From Azoarcus sp. L1K30 (GTDB lineage: Bacteria; Pseudomonadota; Gammaproteobacteria; Burkholderiales; Rhodocyclaceae): DNA of 64,000 bases. The position numbers and the translations under genes are program-made. The stretch is from contig NZ_JAGRRD010000001.1 in NCBI RefSeq assembly GCF_018122735.1, positions 1,141,622 through 1,205,621 of the forward strand, read 5' to 3'. Shown one piece after another: positions 1 through 15,715 of this stretch. Each line of letters begins with the position of its first letter. Position 1 is the first letter of the stretch. The notes under the pieces are model-generated. The model saw only the letters and a program-made list of their open reading frames with translations. It ran no database searches and was not told the origin of the DNA.

Positions 1-518
1 TCGTCATACATCGCACCGTAGACAGTCAGTCCCTTGAGCGGATGAATCTCACCCGTTCCACCCGAGAAGGTGTTGGGAATCGCACGACTGCCCGAGCTCG
101 ACAGCAACATGCTCTTGTGCAGCTGACGACCATACTTTGCATTCAGCAGGTCCTGATATTTGAACTTGACGAAGGCCTGACCGACCTTGCCAAACGAGTC
201 CTGGATGTCGCCGCCGTGGTCGACCGAGAGCACATCGGCGGTAACGCGGCCACTCGAGCCCAGACGGGTCACGCTGTAACCGGAGAGCCCGAAACCGACC
301 ATGTCAGCGAAATACGGCGATTCATAGTTCAGTTGCAGACCCAGGCCCGACTGGCTGCGATCATTCAGACCATTCTCGTAGTCTCGGTCGAAATAGATGC
401 CTCGAACCTTCATTTCGAGCGAATGGCCTTCCAGCTCTGCCGCAGTTGCGACGCCGGAGATCATCGCACTCCCGAGCAGCACCTGCACCAACAGTGTTGA
501 AATCCTCTTCTGTTTCAT
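1..518 (-). CDS. OprD-family outer-membrane porin, N-terminal part (runs off the window)
   Basis: Outer-membrane beta-barrel channel, probably for uptake of small carboxylates. The first ~26 residues are a signal peptide (basic start MKQKR, hydrophobic core, Ala-rich cleavage region ending ATAAELEG). The mature part has alternating barrel-like strands and the OprD-type stretch NAKYGRQLHKSMLLSSSGSR, followed by IPNTFSGG. AAGGAG lies upstream of the ATG at 516-518. The 3' part is outside the window. It is the last visible gene of the minus-strand tricarballylate/itaconate-type block, so an entry port for that substrate is plausible, but a 276-base gap with room for its own promoter separates it from the isomerase gene. 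The family call is fairly secure; the substrate is inferred from position only. Confidence 0.75.
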   Translation of the reverse strand, partial: MKQKRISTLLVQVLLGSAMISGVATAAELEGHSLEMKVRGIYFDRDYENGLNDRSQSGLGLQLNYESPYFADMVGFGLSGYSVTRLGSSGRVTADVLSVDHGGDIQDSFGKVGQAFVKFKYQDLLNAKYGRQLHKSMLLSSSGSRAIPNTFSGGTGEIHPLKGLTVYGAMYD

Positions 519-794
519 GTTGTCTCCTTGGTTATTTGGGGCTGCTATCGCAGCGCTGCGGACAAGAACAAGCACCCGTCGTCGTCGCAACAAGGCAAAG
601 TATGGACAACTGCTTTAATGCTTGGAAATGCAATGGATGCAGTCATTAATGCGTATTTCGCATCAGACAGCATTCGCGTGCACGGCATGTGATCGGGCAT
701 GGTCCCGCACTGATCGTTGCCCAAGTGCTACCCTGCCCGACCCGGTCGCCGAGCGAGGTGTGGCGCCCACTGCCGTTCACGGCCGATGCGTGGC
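519..794. other. Intergenic leader of the porin gene
   Basis: No credible gene is seen here. The stretch is locally more AT-rich near 600-680 than its surroundings and probably carries the porin promoter. No clear terminator for the isomerase gene was found. Confidence 0.4.
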
Positions 795-1898
795 TCAGAC
801 CTGGGAGGGGGCCTCGCTTGCGGCCACCGGTACGTGCACATGGCCAATGAACAGGGGCCGCGCAGTACGCACCAGTCCGGCGACCGCGAACGCGGGGTTC
901 TCCGCCGTGGCGTCAGCTGCTGGCTGCATGCGAATGCTGAGCGCGCCTGCCGGATGTTCGATGGTAATGAGGTTCGGGTCGGCTTCACTGCGTCTCGCAT
1001 AGCGTGCGGGCACCGTGCCCTCGATGCTTGAGGCGGCCGCAAGACACAACGCCCCGGTCACGGCGAAGGCCGAATGGCAGGTCCATGGCGTGAAATACCG
1101 CGACGCGATGCTGCCATCGCGTTCGGGCGTGGCGACAAGGGCGATCTTGGGCAGCACCGACGCGCTGACGTCGCCCAGACCGGCGCGGCGGCCGATTTCA
1201 AGCCGGATCTTCTCCAATCGGGCTTTCAGATCGATATCGCCGTCGAGCACCTGTTTCGACTCATGGCCGGTGCGGCCGAGCGATTCGGCAGCCACGAACA
1301 CCAGCGGGGATGCAAAGTCGATGCAGGTGACCTCGATCCCGTCGACGACATCGACCCGGCTTCCGGTAGGAAAGAGCTTGCCGGTCTTGGCGCCCGCAGC
1401 GTCGAGAAAGTTGAGCACGATAGGCGCACCGCCGCCGGGCACACCGTCGATGCGGGTATCGCCTTCGTAAGTCACCTTGCCACCCGGCGTCTGCACGATG
1501 GCTTCGACGACCTTGCCGGTGTTGCGGTTGAGAATGCGCAGCGTGGTCACCGGATCGCTGGCCTTCACCAGACCGTTCTCGATGGCGTAGGGCCCGACTC
1601 CGGCGAGCATGTTGCCGCAGTTGGGCATGGTGTCCACGGTCGATTGATCGATCGAGACCTGCGCAAACAGATATTCGATGTCGATCCCTTCACGCGAAGA
1701 CGGACTCACGACGACGACCTTGCTCGTCAGCGTATCGCCGCCGCCAATTCCATCCACCTGGCGGATATGGGGCGAGCCCATCGCCGCAAGCAGGACACGG
1801 TCGCGCTCGCCGGGATCGGCGGGCAGATCACGGGCTTGAAAGTACGGGCCCTTCGAGGTCCCGCCGCGCATCAGGGTGCAGCAAATCGTCTTCAGCAT
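795..1898 (-). CDS. PrpF/GalD-family isomerase (4-oxalomesaconate tautomerase or aconitate delta-isomerase type)
   Basis: 367-residue cofactor-independent isomerase of the PrpF fold (two diaminopimelate-epimerase-like halves). The family shifts double bonds in tricarboxylic acids: GalD tautomerises 4-oxalomesaconate, PrpF isomerises methylaconitate, and fungal Adi1 interconverts cis- and trans-aconitate. Visible hallmarks are the N-terminal LMRGGTSKG, GIGGGDTLTSK, the active-site Cys in MPNCGNMLAGVGP (Cys94) and a second Cys in WTCHSAFAVTG. The start at 1898 (MLKTICC) matches family N-termini; a 25-residue upstream extension is rejected. No aromatic ring-cleavage gene is nearby, whereas tcuA and tcuB and a decarboxylase-like lyase are, so an aconitate isomerase role is favoured over gallate catabolism. 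The exact substrate is inferred. Confidence 0.8.
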   Translation of the reverse strand: MLKTICCTLMRGGTSKGPYFQARDLPADPGERDRVLLAAMGSPHIRQVDGIGGGDTLTSKVVVVSPSSREGIDIEYLFAQVSIDQSTVDTMPNCGNMLAGVGPYAIENGLVKASDPVTTLRILNRNTGKVVEAIVQTPGGKVTYEGDTRIDGVPGGGAPIVLNFLDAAGAKTGKLFPTGSRVDVVDGIEVTCIDFASPLVFVAAESLGRTGHESKQVLDGDIDLKARLEKIRLEIGRRAGLGDVSASVLPKIALVATPERDGSIASRYFTPWTCHSAFAVTGALCLAAASSIEGTVPARYARRSEADPNLITIEHPAGALSIRMQPAADATAENPAFAVAGLVRTARPLFIGHVHVPVAASEAPSQV

Positions 1899-2035: not shown

Positions 2036-2992
2036 TCAATCCAGCAGGAATTGCCTTACGTGGGCGAAAGCCTCACCGAAATAGGACTCGTAGGTGTCGC
2101 GCTCAACGAAGCCCAGATGCGGCGTGGCCAGGACCTGCGGATGGCCGGCATACGCCCTTGCGCCCGCGGGTTCGTCCTCGAATACGTCGAGCGCCGCCTG
2201 GGCCGGACGTCCGCTGGCGAGCGCGGCGAGCAAGGCGCCCGGCGCGATCAGTTCGGCGCGGCTGGTGTTGACCAGCAGGCTGTCCTGCGGCATTGCCGTC
2301 AGGTCTTCGACGGTGACGACGTGGCGGGTGTCGGCATTGAGTCGAAGATGCAGGCTCACCACATCGGCGCAGGCGAAGAACGCACGGCGATCCGCGATGA
2401 AGGTGTGACCGGCCTGCTCCGCCGAGGCCCGCGAACCCTCGCGTCCATGCACCACCACTTTCATGCCGAAGGCCTTGCCGAAGGATGCGACCCGCGCGCC
2501 GATCTTGCCGTGCGCCCACACACCGAGCGTTCGCCCATGCAGCGAACGTCCGAGGCGCTCATTCTCGATCCGGTCTTCGCTACGCTGCCATACGCCCGCC
2601 GCAAGCAGGCTGGCGTATGGCACGACCCGGCGCGACGCGGCCAGAATGAGCGACCAGGTGAGCTCGGCCGGTGCGATCGGGTTGCCGGTGCCATCCCGCA
2701 CTTCGATGCCATGCCGTTTGCAGGCTTCGAGATCGATGCAGCCGGACAGCCTGCCGGTCTGAACGATGAGCTTGAGCTCGGGCAAGGCCTCGATCACCGC
2801 CGCGGTGATCGAACTCCGTTCACGAATCAGCACCAGGCAGCGCGTGCCGCGCAATGCCTCGATGAGCTCGGCCTCGTCGTCGATGTGCGCCGTGAGCACA
2901 TTGAGCTCGGCGCAGACACCATCGAGAATTCGCGCGGCATCGAGTTTTGCGACAATGCCCTGGTAGTCGTCCAGCACAGTGACTGTCGTCAT
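2036..2992 (-). CDS. D-isomer-specific 2-hydroxyacid dehydrogenase family protein
   Basis: 318-residue NAD(P)-dependent dehydrogenase of the D-2-hydroxyacid (phosphoglycerate dehydrogenase-like) family. The N-terminal catalytic half (1-~100), the Rossmann domain and the C-terminal catalytic segment are all present, with the expected Arg (VNTSRAELI), Glu (FEDEPAG) and His (ATPHLGF). The nucleotide-binding loop reads WAHGKIG, so the first Gly of GxGxxG is Ala. Its start overlaps the MFS stop by four bases (ATGA), indicating translational coupling. It sits in the tcu block, where it might reduce a 2-oxo acid or oxidise a hydroxy acid derived from the substrate. The substrate cannot be read from the sequence. 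Confidence 0.85.
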   Translation of the reverse strand: MTTVTVLDDYQGIVAKLDAARILDGVCAELNVLTAHIDDEAELIEALRGTRCLVLIRERSSITAAVIEALPELKLIVQTGRLSGCIDLEACKRHGIEVRDGTGNPIAPAELTWSLILAASRRVVPYASLLAAGVWQRSEDRIENERLGRSLHGRTLGVWAHGKIGARVASFGKAFGMKVVVHGREGSRASAEQAGHTFIADRRAFFACADVVSLHLRLNADTRHVVTVEDLTAMPQDSLLVNTSRAELIAPGALLAALASGRPAQAALDVFEDEPAGARAYAGHPQVLATPHLGFVERDTYESYFGEAFAHVRQFLLD

Positions 2993-4308
2993 GTTGCAGC
3001 CTTCCTTTGCCCGTTTGGCGTGATGTGTGTGATGCCGAGCTCGGCATACAGGGGACGCAGATGAACCCGCAGGCGCTCCAGCCCGAAGCGGAAACGCAAT
3101 GCCACCAGCAGCAGCAAAACGCCTGCTGCAAGCAGCGTCATCTCCGGCCCGGCGCGCTCGGCGACCCAGCCAGCAACCAACCCGCCCGCAGCCGCCGCAC
3201 CGAGATTGGCTGCGGTGTAGAGCGCCAGCACCCGTCCGCGCAAACCCGTGGGCAGAATCGTCTGCAGAATCGTGTTGGTCGACGCGTTCCCGGCAATCAT
3301 GCCGAAACCGAGCAGAAACAGCAGCATGCACGCGAGCCAAACCGCATCGGTGAGCGCGAAACCGGTCAACGCGCACGCGGCGAGCAGATTTGCACTCGCG
3401 ATGGTCCCCGTCAGACCCCGCACCGACTGCCGGGTCACCAGATACAGCGAGGCGCACAGTGCGCCCGCGCCCGCACTGCCCAGTAGCGCGCCGAGCATGT
3501 CCGGCCCGCCATGAAATACGTCGCGTGCGAACGCCGGCATCATCGGCAGATAGCTGGCGGCAAAGAAATTGAGCAAGGCCACCTGCAGCAACAGACCGCC
3601 CACCGGAATGCTGTTGCGCACATAGTCGAAGCCCTCGCGCAGTGCGGAGCCAAACGGCATCGGGCGCGGACGCTCGAAGGGACTGTCGATGCTCACTAAG
3701 GCAAGGATCACGCCAACGAAGGACAGACCGTTTACGGCGAAGCAGAAGGCCTCCGAGCTGAGCCCCAGCAGCATGCCCGCGAGCGGAGGCCCGATGAAGC
3801 GGGCAACGTTGAAGGTCAGCGCGTTGAGCGCAATCGCATTCGGGATGTCCTCCCGCTTCGCTACCAGTTGCCCTGCCAGCGCGTGGCGCAGGGGCGCATC
3901 GAAGCTGTTGAGCACTCCGAGCACGGCCGCAGCGATCAGGATCACCCAGGGCCGAATCAGGTCGAGATAGGTCATTGCAGCCAACGCCACCGCCTGCACG
4001 AGCATCAGGCTCTGTATGACGATCATCAGCCGTTTGCGGTCGGCGCGGTCGATGATGATGCCCGCAAACGGCGCCAGCACGAGTTGCGGCGCCTGACTCA
4101 GGAAGGCGACCCCGCCGAGCAATGCGGTAGAGCCCGTGAGCCGATACACCAGCCAGCCCAGCGCAACCTGCTGAATCCAGGTACCCAGCAGCGATAGGGA
4201 CTGCCCGAGAAAGTAGCGACGATATGAGCGGCTTTGTAGCGCGCGCCAGGACGATCTGCGGGGCGAATCCGTTCGCGCAGGCAGCGGATCGTCCCGGCGC
4301 GCGGTCAT
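2989..4308 (-). CDS. MFS transporter, EntS-like (MFS_3) family
   Basis: 439-residue inner-membrane protein with about 12 hydrophobic segments. The N-terminus carries the characteristic [19 protein letters not shown], and the first intracellular loop has DRADRKRL. The family usually exports siderophores, drugs or metabolites by proton antiport. Overlaps of four bases with tcuB upstream and with the dehydrogenase downstream make it part of a tight operon. In Salmonella the third tcu gene, tcuC, is also an MFS protein but a citrate-type importer; this one is of a different MFS branch, so transport of tricarballylate is only a guess from position. A close paralogue lies at 17887-19155. Confidence 0.85.
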
Positions 4309-5474
4309 GACTCGCTACCCACGCCAACCGGATTCGGCTGACGCTTCTCGATGGCCCACTTCAACAGGGCGGCGCTGCGGTAGAAGCCATGACCGAACTT
4401 GCCATAGGGCATGGTCAGGAAGAAGGCCATCACCACGCCCAGATGCACCGCCAGCAGCAGGCCCATCGCCCCCGTCTCACGCCCGGCAAGGAGCGCCAGT
4501 CCGGTCAGGCTGACCATGAAAAGCAGCACGATGAAAGCCCGATCCATCGGTTTCTGTGCCGCGTCGCCATGCTCGGGATGACGCTTCAGGTTGAGCCACA
4601 GCAGCCCTGCAGGTCCGATCAGCAGGCCGATCCCACCCACTGTGCCGAGCAGTACCGGCAAGCTGGTGTAATCGTAGGGCGCCTCCCAGCCGAAGAAATA
4701 GTGGTACGCGGTGGCCAGGCTGGTCGCTGCGAAGCACAGCATGAAGCCGTAGAAAGTGAAATGGTGGAATCGACGTCGCCACAAGGTGAAGGCGTCGTCC
4801 TCGTTGTTGCATCCCAGCCCGTGTCCGCCATCCAGGTACTTCAGCCGCAGCACGTCCTGCGTGGTTTCCGCGATCGCGGCACCGCTCGCACTGCCGGGTG
4901 CGACCTCGCGCCAGAAACGCGCTACCCCGATACCGAGCGCCAGCACTGCGAACAGGAACACCGGTACGAACATGCCCGCCAACAGGTTGTGCGGAAAAAT
5001 GGCGTAGAAATCACCCGCCAGCGGCGCATGAAAGAGACCGCCCTTGAGCACCATGGCCAGCACCAGGAACAGTGCCAGACCACCCGCCAACGCCATCGCT
5101 ACGGTAACCCCGTTGTTTCGGTACAGCTTGCCGAAACCGGCCGGCCAGGCGTAATCGGAGTAGGTCGTCGCCCTCACCTTCGCCATCGCCTGTGGCACGT
5201 TCACCGCAAACTCGTGCGGCGGTGCGTATTGGCAGGCGTGCAGACAGGCACCACAGTTATGGCACAGGTTGGCGAGGTAATGCACATCGGCCGGCTCGAA
5301 CGTCAGGCGACGGGTCATGGCCGGAAACACCGCGCAAAATCCTTCGCAATAGCGGCACGCATTGCAGATCTGCATGATGCGCCCGACTTCCTCCTCGGCC
5401 GCACTGGCGATCGGGATCACCCGCCCCATGGCCAGTTCGCTTGCCTCTTGCGCCAGTGCTTCAAGCCGCTGCAT
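4305..5474 (-). CDS. tcuB: Tricarballylate utilisation iron-sulfur membrane protein TcuB
   Basis: 389-residue membrane electron-transfer protein that, as shown for Salmonella TcuB, reoxidises the FAD of TcuA and passes electrons to the quinone pool. Two ferredoxin-like [4Fe-4S] motifs are visible: Cys37/40/43/47 ([11 protein letters not shown]) and Cys71/74/77/81 ([11 protein letters not shown]). About six membrane helices follow, with His residues suitable for haem or quinone sites ([17 protein letters not shown]). It overlaps the 3' end of tcuA by 14 bases. Length and architecture match the family closely. Confidence 0.92.
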
Positions 5475-6888
5475 GTTCCACTCCCTTCTTCAGTGCCGCC
5501 GCTGCAGCATGGGCGCCGGCAATGCGGCCGAACGCGGTTCCGATGGTCATTCCGACACCGGCGGTATAGCCCTTCCCCAGCACGTTGCCGGCCATCATCT
5601 CGCCCGCGACGAACAGGTTGGCGCTGGGCACGCCGGAAAAATGCACGGCCGCCGCCTCATTCACCTTCAGTCCGAGGTAGGTGAAGGTGATGCCGGGTCT
5701 GAGCGCGTAGCCACGGAACGGCGGCTTGTCGATGGGCAAGGCCCAGTGCGTCTTTGCCGGTGCGAGGCCCTCGGTGTGGCAGTCGTCGAGCACGGTGTGA
5801 TCGAAGCGGCCGATGCGGCAGGCGGCGTTGTACTCGCGCACGGTCCGCACGAAGGTCGCCTCGTCGAGACCGAGCTTGCGCGCCAACTCCTCGAGCGTGT
5901 TGGCGGTCTCGCCCGGAAATACCGGCGGCATGAAGCGCCCGTTGGCCTTGGCGTCGATCACCGAAAACCCGATCTGCCCCGGCTGCTGCGCCACCAGGCG
6001 CCCCCAGATCGCGTAGCGTTTGGGCCAGAAGTCCTCACCCTCGTCGTAGAAGCGCTCGGCGTTGCGATTGACCACGATGCCCAGCGACACGCAGTCGATG
6101 CGGGTGCAGATCCCGCCGTCGTATTGCGGTGCGCGTGCATCGATGGCCACGCAGTGCGACTGCGACGGATCGCCTATGCTGTCGGCGCCTGCATCAATCA
6201 TGAACTTGAGCAGCACACCACGGTTGAAGCGGGTACCGCGGATGGCAAAGTTGTCCGCCGGCCACTCGCCGTCGGCATTCTGCCCCCAGGCCTCGCGCAG
6301 CCATTCGCGGTTCGACTCGAAACCGCCCGCGGCCATCACGCAGGCACGGGCGGCGATGCGCTCGGTGCCGACCCAGGCCGCACGGAATTCGCCGTTCTCG
6401 AGCTCGAGCCGTTCGACGGGTGCGTTGTACCGGACCTGCACGCCCAACGCCTCGGCGCTGCGGTAGTAGGCATTCACCAGCGCCTTGCCGCCGCCCATGA
6501 AGAAGGCGTTGGTGCGCGACAGATGCAGCGTACCCGACAGCGAGGGCTGGAAATTCACACCGTGCTTGCGCATCCAGTCGCGACAGCGCGACGACTCGCG
6601 GATCGCCAGGCGCGCCAGCTTCTCGTCGGTGATGCCGCCGGTGACCTTGAGCAGGTCCTCCCAGAACTCCTGTTCCGGATAGGCCCCGGTCAGCACGTCC
6701 TGGGGCGCGTCATGCATGCAGCGCAGATTGCGGGTATGGGCCGAGTTGCCCCCACGCCATTCGCGCGGTGCCGCTTCCAGCAGCAGCACCGAGGCCCCCG
6801 CTTCACGGGCAACCAGCGCGGCACACAGCGCGGCATTGCCGCCACCGATCACCAGCACATCCACGCTGTTCGAATTCAATTCAGTCAT
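5461..6888 (-). CDS. tcuA: FAD-dependent tricarballylate dehydrogenase TcuA
   Basis: 475-residue flavoprotein of the fumarate-reductase/succinate-dehydrogenase FAD family. In Salmonella, TcuA oxidises tricarballylate to cis-aconitate. The N-terminal dinucleotide-binding motif [17 protein letters not shown] is followed by an acidic strand end (LLLEAAP). The C-terminal region has the FAD loop [18 protein letters not shown]. The start at 6888 (MTELNSN) is preferred because AGGAG lies nine bases upstream; an upstream ATG at 6918 would add ten unconserved residues. It is followed directly by tcuB, and the LysR gene lies 110 bases upstream on the same strand. Confidence 0.92.
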
Positions 6889-6998
6889 TTCAAGCACTCC
6901 TGTGTCCCTGGGCGCCACGCTGATTCGGGTCCGGCGCCTGCGGTGATCGAACTATCTCGCGGACACGGGCGCCAACCCAAAGCCGGTCCGAGATTCGG

Positions 6999-7931
6999 CT
7001 ATCTCGAATCGAGATGGGCGAGATCCACCCCACGCCAGTCGCCGTTCTCGACCAGCTGACGCACCCGCTTCACGAGCAGGGCACGCGTTGCGAGCACAGC
7101 AGGCGACATTTCATCTTCGGACAGGCTGCACAGCAGATTCGGCCGTGACAGACCGGCATCACCCAGCTCCACCCAGCGCAGGCGGGTGTCGGCCTCGGGC
7201 TGGCGGGCGAGTGCCGCCCAAGGCTGCATGGTGGCACCGATGTCATGGCGCACCATGTCCATCAGGACGTACAGCGAATCCACCTCGGCGACGATATTCG
7301 GTGACACCTGACACGCACTGAACGCACTGTCGATCACCCGCCTCAGACCATGGCGATGGGTCGGTAGCACCAGCGGCATGTCCTTCAGATCGGCGAGACG
7401 GGATGGCAGCGGCGACTCGGCGGTTGCACTGCGAATCAGCAACAGGCGCTCGTTCAACAATGGCCGCACGCTCCAGCGTCGGCCACGCTCGCCGTCGAAC
7501 AACACGGCCATGTCGAGCTCCCGCGCATTGAGCATCTGGCCGAGATGGCCGGACATCGCCTCGACCAGACGGATGCGGATCTCCGGGTACTGTGCCCGCA
7601 TCGCCTCGATCAACGCAAAGCCTAGAACGCCTGCACTCGTTGGCGCCAGCCCCACGCTGACCACGCCCGACAGGCGCGAGGCCTGCGCGGCGTGCGCCGC
7701 CTCTTCGGCATGGCGCAGACTGAGTTGCGCATGGGCGACGAAGGCCAGCCCGGCCTCGGTCGGTTCGACCCCCCAGCTCGTTCGCTGCAGCAGGCGGGTG
7801 CTCAGCTCGCTCTCCAGCTTCTGGATCTGCAGACTGATGGCAGACTGGGCAACGCCGAGATCGAGCGCGGCCTGACTGATACTGCCGAGCTCGACCGTGC
7901 GCAACAAATAGCGCAACTGCCTGAGTTCCAT
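6999..7931 (-). CDS. LysR-family transcriptional regulator (TcuR-like by context)
   Basis: 310-residue LysR-type regulator. The N-terminal winged helix-turn-helix (residues 1-60) includes SISQAALDLGVAQSAISLQI and QKLESELSTRLLQR. A periplasmic-binding-protein-like effector domain follows (about 90-295). In Salmonella the neighbouring LysR protein TcuR activates tcuABC in response to tricarballylate. Here the gene lies between the lyase gene and tcuA, all on the minus strand, so it may control the whole block. The family call is certain; the name tcuR is inferred from position. Confidence 0.88.
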   Translation of the reverse strand: MELRQLRYLLRTVELGSISQAALDLGVAQSAISLQIQKLESELSTRLLQRTSWGVEPTEAGLAFVAHAQLSLRHAEEAAHAAQASRLSGVVSVGLAPTSAGVLGFALIEAMRAQYPEIRIRLVEAMSGHLGQMLNARELDMAVLFDGERGRRWSVRPLLNERLLLIRSATAESPLPSRLADLKDMPLVLPTHRHGLRRVIDSAFSACQVSPNIVAEVDSLYVLMDMVRHDIGATMQPWAALARQPEADTRLRWVELGDAGLSRPNLLCSLSEDEMSPAVLATRALLVKRVRQLVENGDWRGVDLAHLDSR

Positions 7932-8130
7932 CGCTCAAGACTCCATGTGTGTACTCAGTTCTCGCTGAGAATCGCCACCTGCGCCAGCTCGTCGCCGGGC
8001 GCCTCGCCGGACCGGGCCGGCACCTCATCGCGGATGGAATCGGCCCGCGCGCCAAGCCCCGGATCGACCAGGGTTGGACAATCCAGCTGCCAGCGGGCGA
8101 GGCGCTCGACGAGAGAGAAGCCGGCCTCCA

Positions 8131-9489
8131 TCAGGACGGCCGGCCTGCCGCGCGGGCAAGCACCTTGTCCACCATCACGCCCGCCTGACCCAGGTAGTTC
8201 GCCGGATCGCACAGCTTTGCCAGCGCCGCGCGGTCGAGATGAACGTTGATCTCAGGGTGATCGGCCAGGATGTCGAGCAGCGGACGGTTGGTCCGGATCG
8301 CTTCGCGACACAGGTCATACACCAGGTCGTGCGCATATTCGCGACCGATGTAGGGGCCGAGGCCCATCATCACCGCTTCGGACATCACCAGGCCGTTGGT
8401 CAGGTCGATGTTGGCGCGCATGTTGCCCTCGTCCACTTCCAGCCCTTCGAGCACGAAACGTGTCTGCTTGAGCGCTCCGGCGAGCAGGCAGAAGGCTTCG
8501 GGCAAGGCGATCCATTCGATCTCCCACGGACCGGTCGAACGTTCGTGGTCGGCGATCATCGCGTCCATCAGTGCAGCCGCGTGCTGACGCACCACCGACA
8601 CCGACGCGTGGATATAGCAGCTGGAGATCGGGTTACGCTTCTGCGGCATGGTGCTGCTCGAACCGCGCCCCGGTGCGAACGGCTCATACACTTCGGCGAC
8701 TTCGTGCTGCATCATCAGCTTCACGTCCATCGCGATCTTGCCCAGCGAGCCGCCGACCAGACCGAGAAAGGCGCCGACTTCCGCAATCGTGTCGCGCACG
8801 GTGTGCCAGGCAATGTCAGGCTGCGCCAGGCCCAGTTCGGCCATCAGGCCCGCCTGGGTTTCCATGGCCCCGGTTTCGATCGAGGCCAGCGTGCCGCAGG
8901 CGCCGCCAAATTCGCCCATCAGCACGCGCGGACGCAACTGGGCCAGACGCTCGCGGTGACGCTCGATGCCCGCGAGGATGGCTGCGGTCTTGAAGCCGAA
9001 GGTCACCGGAATCGCCTGCTGCAGGTTGCTGCGTCCGATCACGGGGGTGTCACGGTAGCGGCTGGACAGCGACACCAGCGCGTCGGAAATGCCCTTGAGC
9101 TCACCGTCGATGATCTCCAGACCTTCGCGGATCTGCATCACGGTGGCGGTATCGGTGATGTCCTGGGTGGTCGCGCCCCAATGGCAGAACTCACCGAGCT
9201 TGTCGCGGCACAGCGCGTTGAGCTGGGAGACGACGCCCAGCACCGGATAGCCGATGCGCTCGGTCTGCTCGCGCAGCTTGTCCATGTCGATCTTGTCGAT
9301 GTCGCAGTTGCGGACGATTTCGTCGGCGGCCTCCTGCGGGATGATGCCGAGACGGCCCTGCACGACCGCGAGTGCGCGCTCGATGTCGAGGTATTTCTCG
9401 GTCCGGTTGCGGTCCGACCACACCTCGCGCATGGCGTCGGTGCTGAAGATGTTGCCGAAGATCTGCGAGTCGATGATGCTGGCGCCCAT
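8131..9489 (-). CDS. Fumarase/aspartase-superfamily lyase, 3-carboxymuconate-cycloisomerase/adenylosuccinate-lyase group
   Basis: 452-residue homotetrameric-type lyase of the class II fumarase superfamily. The signature GSSSTMPQKRNPI (residues 276-288) and upstream HWGATTQDITDTA (103-115) and GRSNLQQAIPVTFG place it in the branch containing PcaB (3-carboxy-cis,cis-muconate cycloisomerase) and adenylosuccinate lyase. Neither pcaC/pcaD nor purine-synthesis genes are near, and the gene sits between the CitE-like lyase and tcuA. The fungal trans-aconitate decarboxylase Tad1 belongs to the same branch, so decarboxylation of aconitate to itaconate is a good alternative function. GGAG precedes the ATG at 9489. 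The family call is firm; the reaction is unproven. Confidence 0.85.
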   Translation of the reverse strand: MGASIIDSQIFGNIFSTDAMREVWSDRNRTEKYLDIERALAVVQGRLGIIPQEAADEIVRNCDIDKIDMDKLREQTERIGYPVLGVVSQLNALCRDKLGEFCHWGATTQDITDTATVMQIREGLEIIDGELKGISDALVSLSSRYRDTPVIGRSNLQQAIPVTFGFKTAAILAGIERHRERLAQLRPRVLMGEFGGACGTLASIETGAMETQAGLMAELGLAQPDIAWHTVRDTIAEVGAFLGLVGGSLGKIAMDVKLMMQHEVAEVYEPFAPGRGSSSTMPQKRNPISSCYIHASVSVVRQHAAALMDAMIADHERSTGPWEIEWIALPEAFCLLAGALKQTRFVLEGLEVDEGNMRANIDLTNGLVMSEAVMMGLGPYIGREYAHDLVYDLCREAIRTNRPLLDILADHPEINVHLDRAALAKLCDPANYLGQAGVMVDKVLARAAGRPS

Positions 9490-9548
9490 GATGGATGCTC
9501 CTCAAATTCTGTGTCTGTATATGGAAATGTGTTGGGTCGTCGTGGTGC

Positions 9549-10364
9549 TCAACCGTGGGCGCTGCGCGCGAGAATGGCCTGCGCCTTGAGCACCACGGGT
9601 CGGTCGATCATTTTTCCGTCGAGTTGAACCGCCCCCTCGCCGCTTCTTGCGGCCTCCAGCACGCGTTCCGCCCATTGCCGCTCCTCGGCGGACGGCAGGC
9701 AGGCGGCGTGGATCACCGCCACCTGCCTGGGGTGGATGCACAACTTGGCGCCGAAGCCGAAGGTCCGCGCGAAGGCCAGGTCGGCCCGGATGCGGGCCTC
9801 GTCGTCCAGCGTCGGCGTAACGCCTGCCACCGGTGCGGCGATGTCGGCACACCGCGATGCGATGGCGATCCGCGAGGACGGATAGATCAGCCCGAGTTCG
9901 TCGCCGGACAGATCGAGATCGACGCCGTAGTCGAGGGTGCCGAAGACCAGTCGCTGCACCCTGCCGGCCGCAGCGATTCGGTCCACGTTGGCCACGCCAC
10001 GTGCGGACTCGATCAGCGGCAGCACCTTCAGCGCCGGACCGGTGGCGCCGACCAGCGCGTCGACCTGTTCCGCCAACTCGACCTTGGGCAGCATCACGTG
10101 GACGATGTCGAGTGCCTTCATCAAGGCCGCGTCGTCGGCAAAACACGCCGAGTTCGCATCGTTGATGCGGACCACGACGCGCGCGGCCGCCTCCGGGTGC
10201 GCGGTGATCCAGTCCGCAATCGCGTTTCGGGCCAGCGCCTTGTCGGCCGGCGCGACGGCGTCTTCGAGGTCGAGCACGATGGCGCCTGCCCCTGCGGCAC
10301 TGGCCTTGTCGAAGCGTTCCGGACGGTTGCCCGGAACGAACAGATAGGTGATCGGGAGTGTCAT
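9549..10364 (-). CDS. CitE-like CoA-ester lyase, probable (S)-citramalyl-CoA lyase
   Basis: 271-residue HpcH/HpaI-CitE TIM-barrel protein. It has the N-terminal LFVPGNRPERFDKA, the Mg-binding acidic pair region LDLEDAVAPADK, the Arg in VVRINDANS, LPLIESARGV and the C-terminal KLCIHPRQV. Such enzymes cleave citramalyl-, malyl- or citryl-CoA; with an adjacent CoA-transferase and MaoC-type hydratase this fits Ccl of itaconate degradation, giving acetyl-CoA and pyruvate. No citrate lyase CitD/CitF genes are present, which argues against a citrate lyase subunit. The CoA-transferase gene ends 20 bases upstream. Confidence 0.85.
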   Translation of the reverse strand: MTLPITYLFVPGNRPERFDKASAAGAGAIVLDLEDAVAPADKALARNAIADWITAHPEAAARVVVRINDANSACFADDAALMKALDIVHVMLPKVELAEQVDALVGATGPALKVLPLIESARGVANVDRIAAAGRVQRLVFGTLDYGVDLDLSGDELGLIYPSSRIAIASRCADIAAPVAGVTPTLDDEARIRADLAFARTFGFGAKLCIHPRQVAVIHAACLPSAEERQWAERVLEAARSGEGAVQLDGKMIDRPVVLKAQAILARSAHG

Positions 10365-10384
10365 CGCATGCCTCCTGCGCGCAC

Positions 10385-11566
10385 TCAGATCACACCAGCG
10401 CTTTTGAGCGCAGCGATGCGATCTTCCGGGTAGCCCAAGCCGGCCAGAATGGCGGCACTGTGCTCGCCCAGTGCCGGCACCGGATCCATCCGCGGCTCAC
10501 ATTCTTCCCACGACCCCGGCGGCAGCAGCGCGGGCACGACCCCGGCCGAGGTCCCCACTTCGCGCCAGCGCTTGCGCGCCTTGAGCTGGGGGTGATCCCA
10601 TACGGCGTGCATGTCATTCACATGGGCATTTGCAATCTGGGCCGCTTCAAGCCGCTCGATCACCTGTTCGGATGTCAGGCTGGCGAAGGCATCGACGATG
10701 ATCTGGCGCAGTTCGACACGCGCCGCGCTGCGCTTCGAGTTGCTCGAGAAGCGAGCTTCCGAGGCCAGGCCGGGCTGCAGCAGCACCTTGTCGCAGAAGG
10801 CCGCCCACTCGCGCTCGTTCTGCAGACCGAGCATCACGACTTTGCCGTCGCCCGCCGGGAACGGACCATAGGGGTAAATCGTGGCGTGGCTTGCGCCGGT
10901 ACGCGGCGGCGGCGACGCACCGTCGAAGGCGTAATACAGCGGATACGTCGTCCATTCCACCAGGCTCTCGAGCATCGAGATGTCGAGGTGCTGACCACGA
11001 CCTGTCTTCTGGCGCTGCAGCAGCGCCGCAAGAATGCTGGAGAAGGCGTACATGCCGGCCGAAATGTCCGCTATCGAAGGGCCGGCCTTCGACGGCTCAT
11101 CCTCGGTTCCGGTGACCGACAGGAAGCCCGATTCGCTCTGGATCAGCAGGTCGTAGGCCTTCTTGTCACGATAGGGGCCATCACTGCCATACCCCGAAAT
11201 ATCGCAGACGATGATCTCGGGCTTGAGCGCCGACAGTTCGGCATACGACAGTCCGAGCCGCGCTGCCGCGCCGGGCGCCAGGTTCTGCACCACGACATCG
11301 GCCTCTTCGACGATCAGGCGTTTGAGGATGATCTGGGCTTCGGCGTCCTTGACGTCCAGCGTCAGGCTTTCCTTGGAGCGGTTGGTCCACACGAAGTGCG
11401 AGGCCAGGCCGCGTACGCGCTCATCGTAGCCGCGGGCGAAGTCGCCCACACCAGGGCGTTCGACCTTGATCACTCGAGCCCCCAGATCCGCCAATTGGCG
11501 GGTAGCAAACGGCGCCGCGATCGCGTGTTCGAGGGTAACAACGGTAATGCCTTCCAACGGTCTCAT
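10385..11566 (-). CDS. CaiB/BaiF (family III) CoA-transferase, probable itaconate/mesaconate CoA-transferase
   Basis: 393-residue family III CoA-transferase. Typical features are the N-terminal MRPLEGITVVTLEHAIAAPF with ATRQLADLGARVIKVE, the conserved Asp in PSIADISAGMYA, GRGQHLDISMLESL and a C-terminal HVNDMHAVWDHPQL. It would move CoA from a donor such as succinyl-CoA to a C5 dicarboxylate. Sandwiched between a CitE-like lyase and a MaoC-like hydratase, it corresponds to Ict (Rip1) of the Pseudomonas/Yersinia itaconate pathway. A related arrangement is also used for mesaconate, so the precise acid is open. Confidence 0.85.
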   Translation of the reverse strand: MRPLEGITVVTLEHAIAAPFATRQLADLGARVIKVERPGVGDFARGYDERVRGLASHFVWTNRSKESLTLDVKDAEAQIILKRLIVEEADVVVQNLAPGAAARLGLSYAELSALKPEIIVCDISGYGSDGPYRDKKAYDLLIQSESGFLSVTGTEDEPSKAGPSIADISAGMYAFSSILAALLQRQKTGRGQHLDISMLESLVEWTTYPLYYAFDGASPPPRTGASHATIYPYGPFPAGDGKVVMLGLQNEREWAAFCDKVLLQPGLASEARFSSNSKRSAARVELRQIIVDAFASLTSEQVIERLEAAQIANAHVNDMHAVWDHPQLKARKRWREVGTSAGVVPALLPPGSWEECEPRMDPVPALGEHSAAILAGLGYPEDRIAALKSAGVI

Positions 11567-11576
11567 TTTCTGTTCC

Positions 11577-12422
11577 TCACTTGATCACCGCGGTGGCTTC
11601 CATCGTCAGCCAGCCTTCGTGATCCTTGGCCCACAGACGGAAGGTCTTGCCGTCGGCCTGAGGCTCGCCGCAGACGAAGAAGTGATTGATGTCGAAGACC
11701 GGGCGCACGGCGCGGAACGCGTAGCTGGCCAGTTCGGCATCGGGCAACTGGTGACGCAGCAGGTCGAGCAGCATGGTGGCGACCATCGGGCCATGCACGA
11801 TCAGGCCGGGATAGCCCTCGACCTCGGTCACGTACTTGCGGTCGTAATGAATGCGGTGGCCGTTGAAGGTGAGTGCCGAGTAGCGGAACAGCAGCACGTC
11901 GTCCGGCACCCACTTCTTCTCCCAGGCGGAGGTGGCCGGTGCGGCCTTGGGCGGCGGTGCGACGTCGTCGGGCCTGGCTGCTTCGCGATAGACGATGTCG
12001 TGAAACTCGGTCAGTGCGATGTCGGTGTCGCCTTCGCGGCGGATCTCGTGACGCACCTTGACGAACACCAGCGGGCCAGTGCGACCGCTCTTTTCGCTCA
12101 CGTCGTGGATGGTCGAAGTGCGCGTCATCACGTCGCCAATGCGCAGCGGCTTGTGAAAAGTGAATTGGCTGCCGGCCCACATGCGCCGCGGCAGTGGCAC
12201 CGGCGGCAGGAAACCGCCGCGCTTGGCGTGACCGTCCGGCCCGATCTCGGACTGGCGGTGCAGCGGCAGAAAGTACAGCCAGTGCCACAGTCCGGGCAGC
12301 GGCGTGCCGACAGCCGGGCGTTGTGCCGGGCGGTCGAAGGTGGCCGACAAGGCGGCGTACGGGGTGGCGGTGGCGATGTCGGAGACTTCTTCCGAGCGGC
12401 CGATCCAGTCCTTGAGATTCAT
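11577..12422 (-). CDS. MaoC/FAS1-like hydratase, probable itaconyl-CoA or mesaconyl-C4-CoA hydratase
   Basis: 281-residue double hot-dog protein. The C-terminal half has the diagnostic stretch FRYSALTFNGHRIHYDRKYV followed by EGYPGLIVHGPMVATML; the Asp/His hydratase residues lie in this region. The N-terminal half is a FAS1-like dehydratase domain. The family includes mesaconyl-C4-CoA hydratase of the 3-hydroxypropionate cycle and Ich (Rip2) of itaconate degradation, both of which form citramalyl-CoA. It stops ten bases before the CoA-transferase start. The start at 12422 (MNLKDWIG) is chosen because the 32-residue upstream extension is unlike the family. Confidence 0.85.
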   Translation of the reverse strand: MNLKDWIGRSEEVSDIATATPYAALSATFDRPAQRPAVGTPLPGLWHWLYFLPLHRQSEIGPDGHAKRGGFLPPVPLPRRMWAGSQFTFHKPLRIGDVMTRTSTIHDVSEKSGRTGPLVFVKVRHEIRREGDTDIALTEFHDIVYREAARPDDVAPPPKAAPATSAWEKKWVPDDVLLFRYSALTFNGHRIHYDRKYVTEVEGYPGLIVHGPMVATMLLDLLRHQLPDAELASYAFRAVRPVFDINHFFVCGEPQADGKTFRLWAKDHEGWLTMEATAVIK

Positions 12423-12487
12423 GTCTGTTTCTCCGTTTGCGCTGAGATGGGTTCGGGCGCCCCGCTGCCTGGCAGCAGGGCGTTCGA

Positions 12488-13771
12488 TCACATCATTCCA
12501 AGGGTTTTGGGCAGCCACAGGCTGAGCGGCGGGTAGTAGGTGACGACCGCGAGGAAGACCAGCATGGTCAGCAGCCAGGGGCTGACGGCCTTGCTCATGT
12601 CGGTCAACCCGAGCTTGCTGATGCCGCTGGCAACATAGAGGTTGAGGCCGACCGGCGGGGTGATCATGCCGATCTCCATGTTCACCGTGATGATGATGCC
12701 GAAGTGGACCGGGTCGATGCCGAGACTCATCGCAATCGGGAACAGGATCGGCGCCAGAATCAGGATGATCGACGCAGGTTCCATGAAGTTGCCCGCGATC
12801 AGCAGCATCACGTTGGCGATCAGCAGGAAGGCGATCGGGCCCACGCCACTGGAGATCAGGCTCTCCGACATTGCCTGCGGGATCTGCTCGCTGGTCAGCA
12901 GGAAGGAGAACAGCACCGCATTGGTGATGATGTAGAGCAGCATTGCCGACAGGTTGGCCGATGACAGCAGCACCTTCTTCAGATCACTCAGGCGCAGATC
13001 CTTGTAGATGAAGGTGGCGACCACGAAGGCATACACGGCACTCATCGCCGCCGCCTCGGTTGCGGTGAAAAGGCCGGAGTAGATACCGCCCATCACCACC
13101 ACGATCAGCATCAGACCCCAGATCGATTCGCGGAAGGCCTTGACGCGCTGTCCCCAGGTGGCGCGCTCGGCACGCGGATACTTGTTCTTCTTGGCGATCC
13201 ACCAGGTGGTGAAGAGCAGCATGCTGGCCAGCACCAGGCCAGGCATGACGCCCGCCATGAACAGCGCACCGATCGAACTGTTGGTCGAGACCGCGTACAT
13301 CACCATCGCGATCGACGGCGGAATCAGAATACCGAGACCACCGGCAGAGGCGACAACGCCCGCGCCGTACTTCTTCGGATACCCCGCCTTGACCATCGCC
13401 GGCAGCAAAATGGAGCCGATCGCCACGACGGTGGCCGGGCTCGAACCCGACACCGCGGCGAACAACGAGCACGCCACCACCGCGCTCAGTCCCAGGCCAC
13501 CCGGCAGGTGGCCGACCATCGAGGTGGCGAACGCGATCATCCGCCGCGCCACCCCGCCGTGAGTCAGGAAGTTACCGGCCAGAATGAAGAAGGGCACGGC
13601 CATGATCTCGAACTTCTCGATCCCGGTGAACAGCTTGAGGGCGACGCTCTCGATGGGCACATCGCTCATGAAGAAGAGGAAGCTCAATACGCTGAGGCCA
13701 AGCGAAATCGAGATCGGCATGCCGGTGATCATCAAGCCCAGCAACAGCACGAAAATAATGGTGGCGTTCAT
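12488..13771 (-). CDS. dctM: TRAP transporter large permease DctM
   Basis: 427-residue, about 12-helix inner-membrane subunit of a tripartite ATP-independent periplasmic transporter. It begins MNATIIFVLLLGLMITGMPI and carries family motifs GSSPATVVAIGSI, SAGGLGILIPPSIAMV and PPVGLNLYVASG. It overlaps dctQ by four bases (ATGA at 13768-13771). Position at the head of the block suggests import of a di- or tricarboxylate. The expected periplasmic binding protein gene is missing upstream (see the fragments near 14.55 kb). Confidence 0.93.
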   Translation of the reverse strand: MNATIIFVLLLGLMITGMPISISLGLSVLSFLFFMSDVPIESVALKLFTGIEKFEIMAVPFFILAGNFLTHGGVARRMIAFATSMVGHLPGGLGLSAVVACSLFAAVSGSSPATVVAIGSILLPAMVKAGYPKKYGAGVVASAGGLGILIPPSIAMVMYAVSTNSSIGALFMAGVMPGLVLASMLLFTTWWIAKKNKYPRAERATWGQRVKAFRESIWGLMLIVVVMGGIYSGLFTATEAAAMSAVYAFVVATFIYKDLRLSDLKKVLLSSANLSAMLLYIITNAVLFSFLLTSEQIPQAMSESLISSGVGPIAFLLIANVMLLIAGNFMEPASIILILAPILFPIAMSLGIDPVHFGIIITVNMEIGMITPPVGLNLYVASGISKLGLTDMSKAVSPWLLTMLVFLAVVTYYPPLSLWLPKTLGMM

Positions 13772-14457
13772 TTCTTGTCTCCCGCCTTGCGCTCCGCATC
13801 CGGACCGAGATCTCGCGGATAGAGGTCGCTGGCGTTCGGGAATTCGATGTTCTCTTCGTCATCCACCGTCGTCTCGTCCATGCCATCGACATGTCCGTGA
13901 TCGTGATGCGGCAACTCGCCGGTACGGATGAATGACAGACAGACCTGGAGGAAACGGAAACACATCAGGCCAGAACCGAGCGGAATGGCGGAATAGACGA
14001 TCCACGTCTGCCATTCGAGATCGACCGTCATCGGACCTTCCATCACCTCGCTCGTATCGAGCCCGAAGAAGTTGTAGAAGGCGTAATGCGCACCGTTCTC
14101 CCACACGAATCGCCCGCCGAGGGTGGCGATGATTCCGGTGAAGAGCGCGCCGGCCAGCAGACCGAAAATGATGAACTTGTAGCGGTTGCGGTCGGACAGG
14201 CGGTTGATCAGCACATCGACGCCGACGTGAATGCCCGTCCTGACGCCATAGGCCGCGCCAAACTTGGCCATCCACACGAACAGGATGATCGTGAGCTCCT
14301 GCGCCCATGACATGTTGATCGAAAGCAGCCAGTCCTGCAGGCCGGGAATGGCAAGCCCGGAGGCATACCGGTGTACGACCGCGGCGAAGGTAATCACCGT
14401 CGCTGCGCCGATGAGGAGCGTAATGAGCCACTCCTCCAGCTGATCGAGGAATTTCAT
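13768..14457 (-). CDS. dctQ: TRAP transporter small permease DctQ
   Basis: 229-residue four-helix membrane protein. The family hallmark is in the central part: SWAQELTIILFVWMAKFGAA and GIHVGVDVLINRLS. The C-terminal tail is unusually acidic and His-containing (PHHDHGHVDGMDE) and longer than in many DctQ proteins. The start at 14457 has GGAG upstream. The open frame extends further up to 14637, but only because an etfA fragment happens to be in frame; that extension is not part of dctQ. Confidence 0.9.
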   Translation of the reverse strand: MKFLDQLEEWLITLLIGAATVITFAAVVHRYASGLAIPGLQDWLLSINMSWAQELTIILFVWMAKFGAAYGVRTGIHVGVDVLINRLSDRNRYKFIIFGLLAGALFTGIIATLGGRFVWENGAHYAFYNFFGLDTSEVMEGPMTVDLEWQTWIVYSAIPLGSGLMCFRFLQVCLSFIRTGELPHHDHGHVDGMDETTVDDEENIEFPNASDLYPRDLGPDAERKAGDKK

Positions 14458-14528
14458 TGGAATCTCCGCGTGAAAATGGGTGCGGCGGGCGGGGCGCATG
14501 CCGCACCCGCCGCACGCCGCGAGGATGA

Positions 14529-14560
14529 TTACTTGGCGCAGGCCGTCGCTGCCCAGCGCC
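14529..14560 (-). pseudogene. Probable 3' remnant of a TRAP substrate-binding protein gene (dctP)
   Basis: Reading minus strand in the frame that ends with TAA at 14529-14531 gives the short tail RRWAATACAK, which resembles the basic C-terminus of DctP proteins. It sits exactly where dctP would be expected, 71 bases before dctQ. Upstream of about 14555 the sequence becomes etfA-like in another frame. The remnant is too short for homology to be certain; position is the main argument. Confidence 0.35.
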
Positions 14561-14637
14561 GCGGCTGCGGTGACGGTGTTGAGGGTGGCCGCCTTGATGG
14601 TCTGGTTGTCGTGTTCAGCAATGACGAGAATGGACAT
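14551..14637 (-). pseudogene. etfA: 5' fragment of electron-transfer flavoprotein alpha subunit gene (etfA), truncated
   Basis: The first ~29 codons read MSILVIAEHDNQTIKAATLN, then TVTAAAALG, which is the standard N-terminus of EtfA. After the LG the expected continuation (GGDIHVLVAG-like) is lost and the frame runs into the dctQ leader. The start codon lies one base after the etfB stop, the normal etfB-etfA arrangement. About 280 residues of EtfA, including the FAD domain, are absent from this locus. Confidence 0.75.
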
Positions 14638-14638
14638 A

Positions 14639-15388
14639 TCAGATCACCTTCGCTTCGTTCTTGAGTTTGTCGACCAGCTGGGCCACGTCGGCCACGCGTA
14701 CCCCGGCGCTGCGCTTGGGCGGCTCGGACACTTTGAGCGTCGCGAGGCGCGGCGCCACATCGACGCCCAGATCGGCCGGCTTCACGGTCTCGAGCGGCTT
14801 TTTCTTCGCCTTCATGATGTTGGGCAGCGTGGCGTAGCGCGGCTCATTGAGGCGAAGGTCGGTGGTCACCACCGCCGGCAGCTTGATCGACAGCGTCTCC
14901 AGCCCGCCGTCGATCTCGCGCATCACCTTGGCATGCCCGTCTTCGAGCGTGAGCTTGGAGGCGAAGGTCGCCTGCGCCCAGCCGTTGAGCGCGGCCAGCA
15001 TCTGGCCGGTCTGGTTGGCGTCGTCGTCGATGGCCTGCTTGCCGCAGATCACCAGCGTCGGGCCTTCCTTGTCGCACACCGCCTTGAGCAGCTTGGCCAC
15101 CGCCAGCGGCTGCAGCTCGACATCGGTCTCGACCAGGATCCCGCGGTCCGCACCGATGGCCATCGCCGCGCGCAGCGTCTCCTGGCATGCGCTCACCCCG
15201 CAGCTCACCGCCACCACCTCGGTGGCCACGCCCGCTTCCTTCAGACGCACCGCTTCTTCCACCGCGATCTCGTCGAACGGGTTCATGCTCATCTTGACGT
15301 TGGCAATATCCACGCCGCTGCCGTCCGCCTTCACACGGACCTTCACGTTGTAGTCAACCACGCGTTTGACCGGGACCAGAATCTTCAC
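14639..15388 (-). CDS. etfB: Electron transfer flavoprotein beta subunit EtfB
   Basis: 249-residue AMP-binding subunit of the ETF that carries electrons from acyl-CoA dehydrogenases to ETF:quinone oxidoreductase. It begins [19 protein letters not shown] and has the ETF-beta signature region [20 protein letters not shown] and [12 protein letters not shown]. The only start in frame with the family N-terminus is GTG at 15388, where related genes use ATG; a junction with frmA sequence lies immediately upstream, so the native promoter and RBS appear lost. With etfA cut short next door, this copy probably cannot form a functional ETF unless a second etfA exists elsewhere. Confidence 0.85.
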
Positions 15389-15394
15389 GAGTGA

Positions 15395-15715
15395 ATCGGC
15401 AACAAGAAGGTCATGCGCTCCGCGCTGGAGTGTGGCCATAAGGCTGGGGTTGAGTCGACCACCATCGGCGTGGCGGGTGCCGGCGAAGAAATCCCCCCCC
15501 GCCCCTTCCAGCTCGTGACCGGCCGCGTGTGGCGCGGCTCGGCCTTCGGCGGTGTTCGGGGCCGTACCGAACTGCCGGGCTATGTCGCCAGGGCGCAAGC
15601 GGGCGAAATCCCGCTCGACACCTTCATCACCCATACCATGGGGCTGGAGGACATCAACAAGGCTTTCGACCTGATGCACGAAGGTAAGAGCATTCGCACC
15701 GTAATCCGGTTCTGA
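15395..15715 (+). pseudogene. frmA: 3' fragment of S-(hydroxymethyl)glutathione dehydrogenase gene (frmA/adhC)
   Basis: The plus-strand reading [20 protein letters not shown], then [19 protein letters not shown] and [10 protein letters not shown]-stop matches the last ~105 residues of glutathione-dependent class III alcohol dehydrogenase. The N-terminal two thirds (zinc sites and most of the Rossmann domain) are missing: a TGA stands in frame at 15392 and etfB sequence begins at 15388 on the other strand. The stop is two bases before fghA, the usual partner gene, so the native frmA-fghA operon has lost its 5' part here. An ATG at 15413 could give a 100-residue product, unlikely to be active. 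Confidence 0.75.

Follow-up and report, generated by a model that had tools for sequence, protein, structure and literature searches.

Trans-aconitate decarboxylase is an enzyme type known from a fungus, and each single enzyme type in the pathway discussed below is also known. Tad1 of Ustilago maydis converts trans-aconitate, and not cis-aconitate, to itaconate in vitro (PMC4720413). It acts with Adi1, a PrpF-family protein whose equilibrium of 88:12 favors the trans isomer, and trans-aconitate inhibits aconitase and fumarase (PMC4720413). For bacteria, the literature searched describes only isomerization to cis-aconitate as a use of trans-aconitate (PMC11495376, PMC13188880). A route from itaconate to acetyl-CoA and pyruvate has been tested genetically in Pseudomonas (PMC9875883). 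Among the papers listed in that literature, which lies largely outside subscription journals, none describes a trans-aconitate decarboxylase from bacteria or a bacterial ortholog in a degradation operon. The stretch of DNA analyzed here, called the window, comprises 64,000 nucleotides of Azoarcus sp. L1K30 (contig NZ_JAGRRD010000001.1, positions 1,141,622 to 1,205,621). A lyase gene is located on its minus strand at 8131-9489. With a probability of roughly 86%, judged from sequence comparison, this gene encodes a bacterial trans-aconitate decarboxylase (TAD) that is orthologous to fungal Tad1 and lies in a catabolic operon. An initial annotation of the DNA had proposed this function, and the proposal is supported by the clade shared with Tad1, by alignment columns found only in TADs, and by a conserved gene set.

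The open reading frame (ORF) of the lyase encodes 452 amino acids (aa). It starts with ATG, and GAGGAG is found just 5' of the start. The predicted product is a lyase of the fumarase/aspartase superfamily, and its Pfam domains are Lyase_1 (9e-39) and ADSL_C (3e-22). The initial annotation had assigned it to the PcaB/adenylosuccinate lyase branch through two signatures, HWGATTQD and GSSSTMPQKRNP. Both are present, and I288 is the next residue after GSSSTMPQKRNP. Relatives were sought in 84,980 species genomes by matching six exact peptide patterns taken from the window protein, an approach that favors close relatives, and the best 80 of 221 relatives were used. These 80 loci have 76-96% identity. 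Both signatures are unchanged in 77 of 77 sequences, the 80 minus three with a stop in the translated match. Because of this identity and the retained motifs, the ORF is not a product of chance. The loci left out of the motif list and the trees for such a stop are L036, L069, L073, L086, and L122. One or both motif patterns were unmatched in some distant rows (L089, L119, L120, L125, L137, L147, and L150). Phage records held no close relative of the lyase; seven records were found at E ≤ 1e-40, all with less than 60% identity.

The nearest solved protein is Tad1. All five Ustilago maydis Tad1 sequences (PDB 9h3i, 9h4e, 9h4g, 9h4h, and 9xb2) were the top phmmer matches, with E-values of 2.8e-157 to 1.8e-154 and 518-527 bits. 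The alignment covers 438 residues with no gap, and 245 are identical (56%). The next matches were 3c8t, titled "fumarate lyase" (458 bits), and Pseudomonas putida PcaB, 1re5 (371 bits). Acinetobacter PcaB, 1q5n (345 bits), CreD (261 bits), and PurB (at most 181 bits) ranked lower. Nine bacterial enzymes were compared with Tad1 and are 56-61% identical to it, and the window protein is 40-42% identical to PcaB.

Some public records label close relatives as 3-carboxy-cis,cis-muconate cycloisomerase (PcaB). A plasmid gene of the TAD clade (H5) is labeled pcaB, and the window protein reaches 492 bits with the NCBIfam PcaB model NF006554. That score is below the cut-off of 595, and the other two PcaB models are below theirs as well (TIGR02426, 343 against 356 bits; NF004631, 216 against 371). 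A second adenylosuccinate lyase (PurB) could be suspected from the ADSL_C domain and from the label "adenylosuccinate lyase family protein" on H4 and H6, but TIGR00928 (290 against 326) and NF006764 (72 against 446) are not reached either. NF006500 is also under its cut-off (416 against 626). Among the NCBIfam models of June 2026 that the window protein matched, none is for trans-aconitate decarboxylase. The bacterium's own genome has five Lyase_1 genes, which are the TAD gene, FumC-, AspA-, and ArgH-like genes (judged on the Lyase_1 stretch), and a clear PurB at C1:2418486-2419382 (L167; 483 bits against a cut-off of 446). Intradiol dioxygenase (PF00775) had no match in this genome at E ≤ 0.001; among 14 control genomes, 4 had one. 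With a separate PurB present and the dioxygenase unmatched, a role as PcaB or as PurB is very unlikely. No purine or protocatechuate gene was found among the neighbors scanned (window 1-15394), in agreement with the initial annotation. Both roles were rejected on the basis of curated models, motifs, and genome content, and PcaB on the basis of the tree as well; each was given only a minimal probability.

A first tree of 76 rows was calculated with IQ-TREE under LG+C20+F+G4. Its rows comprised four PDB chains, distant loci, and 24 loci from the close set of 80; where one gene stood under two locus ids, the duplicates were removed in part. The window protein, the bacterial sequences with at least 76% identity, and Tad1 form a single clade in it (support 100/99), and the PcaB proteins are placed apart. 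The TAD/Tad1 clade was kept in a second, quick tree, in which 38 rows were chosen differently and plasmid sequences were included (SH-aLRT, an approximate likelihood ratio test, 100), and an isolated gene of Komagataeibacter oboediens joined it. On these trees the window protein is an ortholog of Tad1. The initial annotation had named placement inside true PcaB or PurB clades as an outcome that would count against the idea. PcaB was judged by the tree and PurB by the curated models, and neither placement was found. In the 38-row tree, grouping the TADs with PcaB, without Tad1 and the 3c8t clade, was rejected by the approximately unbiased (AU) test (p-AU 0.002). The groups for the AU test were chosen after the first tree was known, which makes the p-values flattering.

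The clade of 3c8t is the sister of the TAD/Tad1 clade and the nearest bacterial group (95/83 in the 76-row tree). This placement leaves room for a fumarate-type lyase with another substrate that merely resembles Tad1, as does the fact that superfamily lyases with quite different substrates have the same fold. Grouping the TADs with the sister clade and without Tad1 was rejected, with a p-AU of 0.0008 in the 38-row tree. The sister clade also has Ala at the position of S277 and Thr-His where TADs and Tad1 have Ser154-Asn155. Its surroundings differ as well. On four plasmids (L159, L161, L162, and L163), a sister-clade gene with the motif GASSTMPQK is flanked by a GntR regulator on one side and a dicarboxylate symporter on the other in 4/4 cases. 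FumC is next in 2/4, and 3/4 of these genes are labeled pcaB. The sister clade is perhaps an uncharacterized fumarate-releasing lyase acting on an imported acid. The window protein has the loop GSSST in place of GASSTMPQK and stands outside a GntR-lyase-symporter context, so membership in the 3c8t clade was rejected. A lyase of this kind with another substrate appears improbable, and the TAD reading is kept.

Residues that set TADs apart were taken from the alignment. A column was counted as a TAD column if its residue occurred in Tad1 and in 97% or more of 83 TAD rows but in no more than 5% of 18 PcaB rows, and 39 were found. In fifteen of these, no more than 5% of 14 sister-clade rows had the residue either, and these fifteen are common to TADs and Tad1 only. 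They are N28, V43, I79, L98, E100, T112, S154, N155, K257, S277, Y292, H294, I324, S370, and Y385. T112, S154/N155, and S277 presumably lie in the three signature loops of the superfamily. Candidate active-site residues of the window protein are S277 (Tad1 S320), S278/S279, R317 (Tad1 R360), S154/N155, and T108/T112. S320 is altered in PDB 9h4h ("Tad1_S320A") and R360 in 9h4g ("R360A binding with trans-aconitate"); for the roles of both, the PDB titles are the source. Both residues are conserved in the window protein. The position of S277 is occupied by Ala in 14/14 sister rows and by Gly in 18/18 PcaB rows. The window loop reads GSSS...Q, in contrast to GGSS...H in PcaB, where H replaces Q283.

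The genes around the lyase provide its context, and the features of this part of the window are as follows.
13768..14457, minus strand: DctQ, small subunit of a TRAP transporter, with a putative start at MKFLDQ (Pfam; the ORF extends to 14637)
12488..13771, minus strand: TRAP transporter large subunit DctM (Pfam)
11577..12422, minus strand: MaoC-type itaconyl-CoA hydratase-like protein (PDB 8khg, itaconyl-CoA hydratase, 1.1e-70)
10385..11566, minus strand: class III (CaiB/BaiF) CoA-transferase, proposed itaconate CoA-transferase, 393 aa (Pfam CoA_transf_3; PDB search)
9549..10364, minus strand: citramalyl-CoA lyase-like CitE/RipC family protein (CCL), 271 aa (Pfam HpcH_HpaI; best PDB matches 8khl/9nzb, acyl-CoA lyase)
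8131..9489, minus strand: predicted trans-aconitate decarboxylase (TAD), 452 aa (PDB phmmer, trees, columns, and PDB titles)
6999..7931, minus strand: LysR-type regulator, between TAD and the tcu genes (Pfam)
5461..6888, minus strand: tricarballylate dehydrogenase TcuA, with a predicted start (770.8 bits with NCBIfam NF006130 against a cut-off of 369)
4305..5474, minus strand: 4Fe-4S tricarballylate utilization protein TcuB (698 bits with NCBIfam NF011607 against a cut-off of 524)
2989..4308, minus strand: MFS transporter, MFS_3 (Pfam; NCBIfam EntS model below cut-off)
2036..2992, minus strand: D-2-hydroxyacid dehydrogenase family protein (Pfam; the inferred ATG start overlaps the end of the MFS gene)
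795..1898, minus strand: PrpF-family isomerase, proposed aconitate (cis/trans) isomerase (PrpF Pfam, 384 bits; PDB search)
1..593, minus strand: OprD-family porin gene, 5' part, continuing beyond the window (L174:2827-4215, Pfam OprD 1.3e-36)

The genes are given in order of transcription, and the run from DctQ to OprD probably forms one transcript. The identities agree with those described in the initial annotation. It had placed six-carbon acids upstream of the lyase and five-carbon itaconate downstream, which holds for the order of the pathway and not for transcription, where the itaconate genes precede the lyase and the tricarballylate genes come after it. TcuA and TcuB both exceed their cut-offs, as would befit a system for tricarballylate utilization. 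The start of the MaoC gene was set at an ATG after a purine-rich stretch, and the longest ORF starts at 12518. The protein had only two PDB matches at E ≤ 0.001, one of which is the itaconyl-CoA hydratase, consistent with a predicted hydratase. No curated NCBIfam model matched it.

Context was counted among the best 80 relatives, using the 70 loci that had 4 kb or more of upstream sequence and the 51 loci that had 8 kb or more to either side. MaoC is found by TAD in 65/70, the CoA-transferase in 61/70, and CCL in 53/70. All three are present in 51/70 and at least one in 66/70. PrpF is on the same strand as TAD in 40/51 loci, and TcuA and TcuB are each present in 14/51. The conserved core by sequence is therefore TAD with the itaconate genes, mostly with PrpF, and TcuAB is an add-on because it is found in 14/51 loci and the itaconate-type genes are found in most. 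The initial annotation had reasoned that one decarboxylation step was left unassigned among the neighbors. This logic holds across genera, where the lyase travels with genes resembling those for itaconyl-CoA hydratase, CoA-transferase, and citramalyl-CoA lyase and with PrpF. None of the three itaconate-type genes, PrpF, or TcuA was found in 13 sister-clade or 6 PcaB-clade loci, for which the same match test was used with the strand condition dropped and over flanks of mostly 7-9 kb. Ten deeper loci were also compared, two of which have a distant CoA-transferase (28%).

Other genes recur beside TAD. Adjacent ORFs were clustered without bias, and this was used for recurrent families only, as G+C-rich DNA gives many antisense ORFs. 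Uptake genes for tricarboxylates or dicarboxylates (TctC, TctA, DctP, DctA, and OprD) are recurrent neighbors, and in 11 clustered loci the gene that directly follows TAD, in the same orientation, is a LysR gene. The plasmids of Bradyrhizobium sp. CB82 and Variovorax sp. SRS16 have the order MaoC, CoA-transferase, CoA ester lyase, and "adenylosuccinate lyase family protein," with DctA beside it. A second cluster of Cupriavidus necator with the layout of a TAD locus was set aside without assignment in a 2025 paper (PMC12290011). A Cupriavidus locus (L079, 11.2 kb) with MaoC, CoA-transferase, TAD, and no CCL match has the layout of that cluster, the two being compared by layout only.

In L072:8846-10936, L029:7862-9997, L038:6408-8885, and others, PrpF and a TctC-type tricarboxylate-binding domain form a single in-frame fusion. 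The PrpF frame is 674-760 aa long in 32/54 TAD loci with a long PrpF match, and both domains were checked with Pfam in L072, L029, and L038. The fusion is odd, as the isomerase, which is presumably cytosolic, is followed by a domain of a binding protein. In L042, L054, L055, and L077, where the CoA-transferase and CCL are both missing, MaoC is the sole itaconate-type gene by TAD, 28-503 bp apart. This suggests that the hydratase and TAD are the tightest pair.

A Tad-type decarboxylase could also belong to an operon that serves mainly to detoxify trans-aconitate or to form itaconate deliberately, and not to support growth. The known role of Tad1 is biosynthetic, and aconitase is inhibited by trans-aconitate (PMC4720413). 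TAD occurs with PrpF only in L029 and L038, and the CoA-transferase or CCL is missing nearby in some loci. In L029, the PrpF fusion ends 3 bp before TAD and there are no itaconate genes, an arrangement resembling the fungal pair. The presence of at least one gene resembling those for itaconate degradation in 66/70 loci and of all three in 51/70 speaks against this use, as do the recurrent uptake genes. Detoxification or itaconate formation as the main purpose is considered unlikely.

The catabolic reading would work as follows. Trans-aconitate would be imported through OprD and the TRAP transporter, or through other tricarboxylate carriers in relatives, or it could be formed from cis-aconitate by the PrpF isomerase. 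Where TcuAB is present, tricarballylate would first be oxidized to cis-aconitate, which is reportedly the product of TcuA. TAD would then protonate the double bond of trans-aconitate and release a carboxylate as CO2 by anti-elimination, the scheme proposed for Tad1, to give itaconate. The CoA-transferase would convert itaconate to itaconyl-CoA, the MaoC protein would hydrate this to citramalyl-CoA, and the CitE-like lyase would cleave citramalyl-CoA to acetyl-CoA and pyruvate. Such a route would dispose of trans-aconitate, an aconitase inhibitor, and it may be beneficial because trans-aconitate inhibits aconitase and fumarase and the route needs neither. The idea of a trans-aconitate decarboxylase is supported about as far as sequence can go, and the pathway would close a gap.

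Several observations weigh against the TAD reading or its pathway. The best NCBIfam model for CCL is RipC, a lyase of itaconate degradation, but the score is 151 bits against a cut-off of 375, and the protein is named only "citramalyl-CoA lyase-like" for this reason. The CoA-transferase is under all curated cut-offs, its best model being succinate-glutarate CoA-transferase (251.5 against 750 bits). The PrpF protein of the window passes the NCBIfam model for 4-oxalomesaconate tautomerase (497.7 bits, cut-off 440), so that its role as an aconitate isomerase is a guess. The sequence also gives no reason why the cis-aconitate made by TcuAB should leave the tricarboxylic acid (TCA) cycle. At least one itaconate-type gene is missing within reach in 19/70 loci, and all three in 4/70. 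These four are L029 and L038, which have the PrpF-TctC fusion, L060, which has an acyl-CoA synthetase, and L024, with nothing relevant. CCL alone is missing in L031, L032, L040, L041, L058, L067, L070, L074, and L084, MaoC in L026, and the CoA-transferase in L056. The TAD of G407 (L146) is accompanied by a DctP-type binding protein, and no module gene lies within 19 kb. Tad1 is on a long branch in the 76-row tree. The Arg equivalent to R317 is invariant in all groups, including PcaB, and only S277 is diagnostic. An AlphaFold model of the window protein (mean predicted local distance difference test score, pLDDT, of 78.6) was compared with solved structures, as the initial annotation had suggested. 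Tad1 is indeed the best fold match (Z 41.1, root-mean-square deviation 4.3, 434 aligned), but it is barely parted from PcaB (39.3) and 3c8t (38.7). Confidence in the model is lowest precisely at the active-site loops, with pLDDT below 50 at 154-158, 276-284, and 314-320. Many superfamily members match the fold of the model, and the fold comparison is not decisive. One feature of L060 stands apart from these points. Its AMP-binding acyl-CoA synthetase (L060:7330-9372) lies immediately before TAD, in the place of the itaconate genes in other loci.

A wider proposal can be made only tentatively, and we rate it at somewhat under even odds. Bacteria would possess a full route, independent of aconitase, that converts tricarballylate and trans-aconitate within the cell to itaconate, an antimicrobial, and then to acetyl-CoA and pyruvate. 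The adi1-tad1 pair of smut fungi would have come from a bacterial PrpF-TAD operon by gene transfer, with catabolism turned into itaconate production.

Three of four same-genus genomes carry the TAD gene together with the surrounding module (L142-L144). With a threshold of 76% identity, the gene is present in 6/61 near relatives, the own genome included, in 1/398 genomes of the phylum, which is the own genome, and in 7/249 genomes of one family. This patchy spread is as might be expected for a transferable catabolic unit. A lone Tad-like gene (L158:8001-9422) lies between mobile elements on a conjugative plasmid of Komagataeibacter oboediens. Its protein is 55% identical to the window protein and 53.5% to Tad1, and it has the GSSST loop and 10/15 of the TAD-only columns.

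The operon is in two places in this genome. LysR, PrpF, and DctP are located at 329-332 kb (C1:329000-332400, L173), and the part from DctQ onward is in the window. In L007 and L015, PrpF, DctQ, DctM, and MaoC form one uninterrupted run. The breakpoint (window 14404-15562) has a mosaic makeup: a copy with 81% identity to the sequence that follows dctP, an apparent etfA start, etfB, and an adhC-like piece. Segments of 49-51 bp within it are found identically elsewhere, partly adjoining masked sequence. The DctQ ORF up to 14637 is in frame with a piece that we take to resemble the start of etfA.

If the TAD reading is true, bacteria would have a second route for trans-aconitate, beside the isomerase route published in 2024, and itaconate would be a normal bacterial intermediate outside infection. 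Genes labeled "adenylosuccinate lyase family" or pcaB (H4-H6) would gain a function, and perhaps the Cupriavidus necator cluster layout set aside in the 2025 itaconate paper would as well. Sugarcane and sweet sorghum accumulate aconitic acid as their main six-carbon acid (PMC8871043). Many bacterial enzymes, of which the nine compared are close to Tad1, could then serve to produce itaconate from plant tricarboxylates.

Among the known systems, the Bacillus velezensis FZB42 tar system, with the aconitate isomerase TarA and the importer TarB (PMC11495376), is similar in that a bacterium uses trans-aconitate with an isomerase of the PrpF superfamily. It differs in converting trans-aconitate to cis-aconitate for the TCA cycle; no decarboxylase is described in the available text, and its main text has 0 mentions of itaconate. 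The ict-ich-ccl genes of Pseudomonas aeruginosa and Cupriavidus necator (PMC9875883, PMC12290011) have the reaction types proposed for the window genes, namely CoA-transferase, itaconyl-CoA hydratase, and citramalyl-CoA lyase, but that pathway, as given in the accessible text, begins at itaconate or methylsuccinate and has no decarboxylase. The TcuA/TcuB system of tricarballylate utilization is represented in the window by both genes, above curated cut-offs. In the window it is joined with TAD and the itaconate genes, as it is in only a minority (14/51) of the well-flanked TAD loci. PcaB (1re5 and 1q5n) has its fold and superfamily in common with the window protein, and differs in its lower identity, in H at the Q283 position and G at S277, and in its clade. 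The closest system is Ustilago maydis Tad1, which shares with the window protein the gapless alignment at 56% identity, a single clade, and the TAD-only columns, including S320 and Y335/H337 (S277 and Y292/H294 in the window). Tad1 works with the PrpF-family Adi1, and bacterial TAD is often neighbored by PrpF. Tad1 is fungal and biosynthetic and serves itaconate production, whereas the window gene is bacterial and lies among genes resembling those for itaconate degradation.

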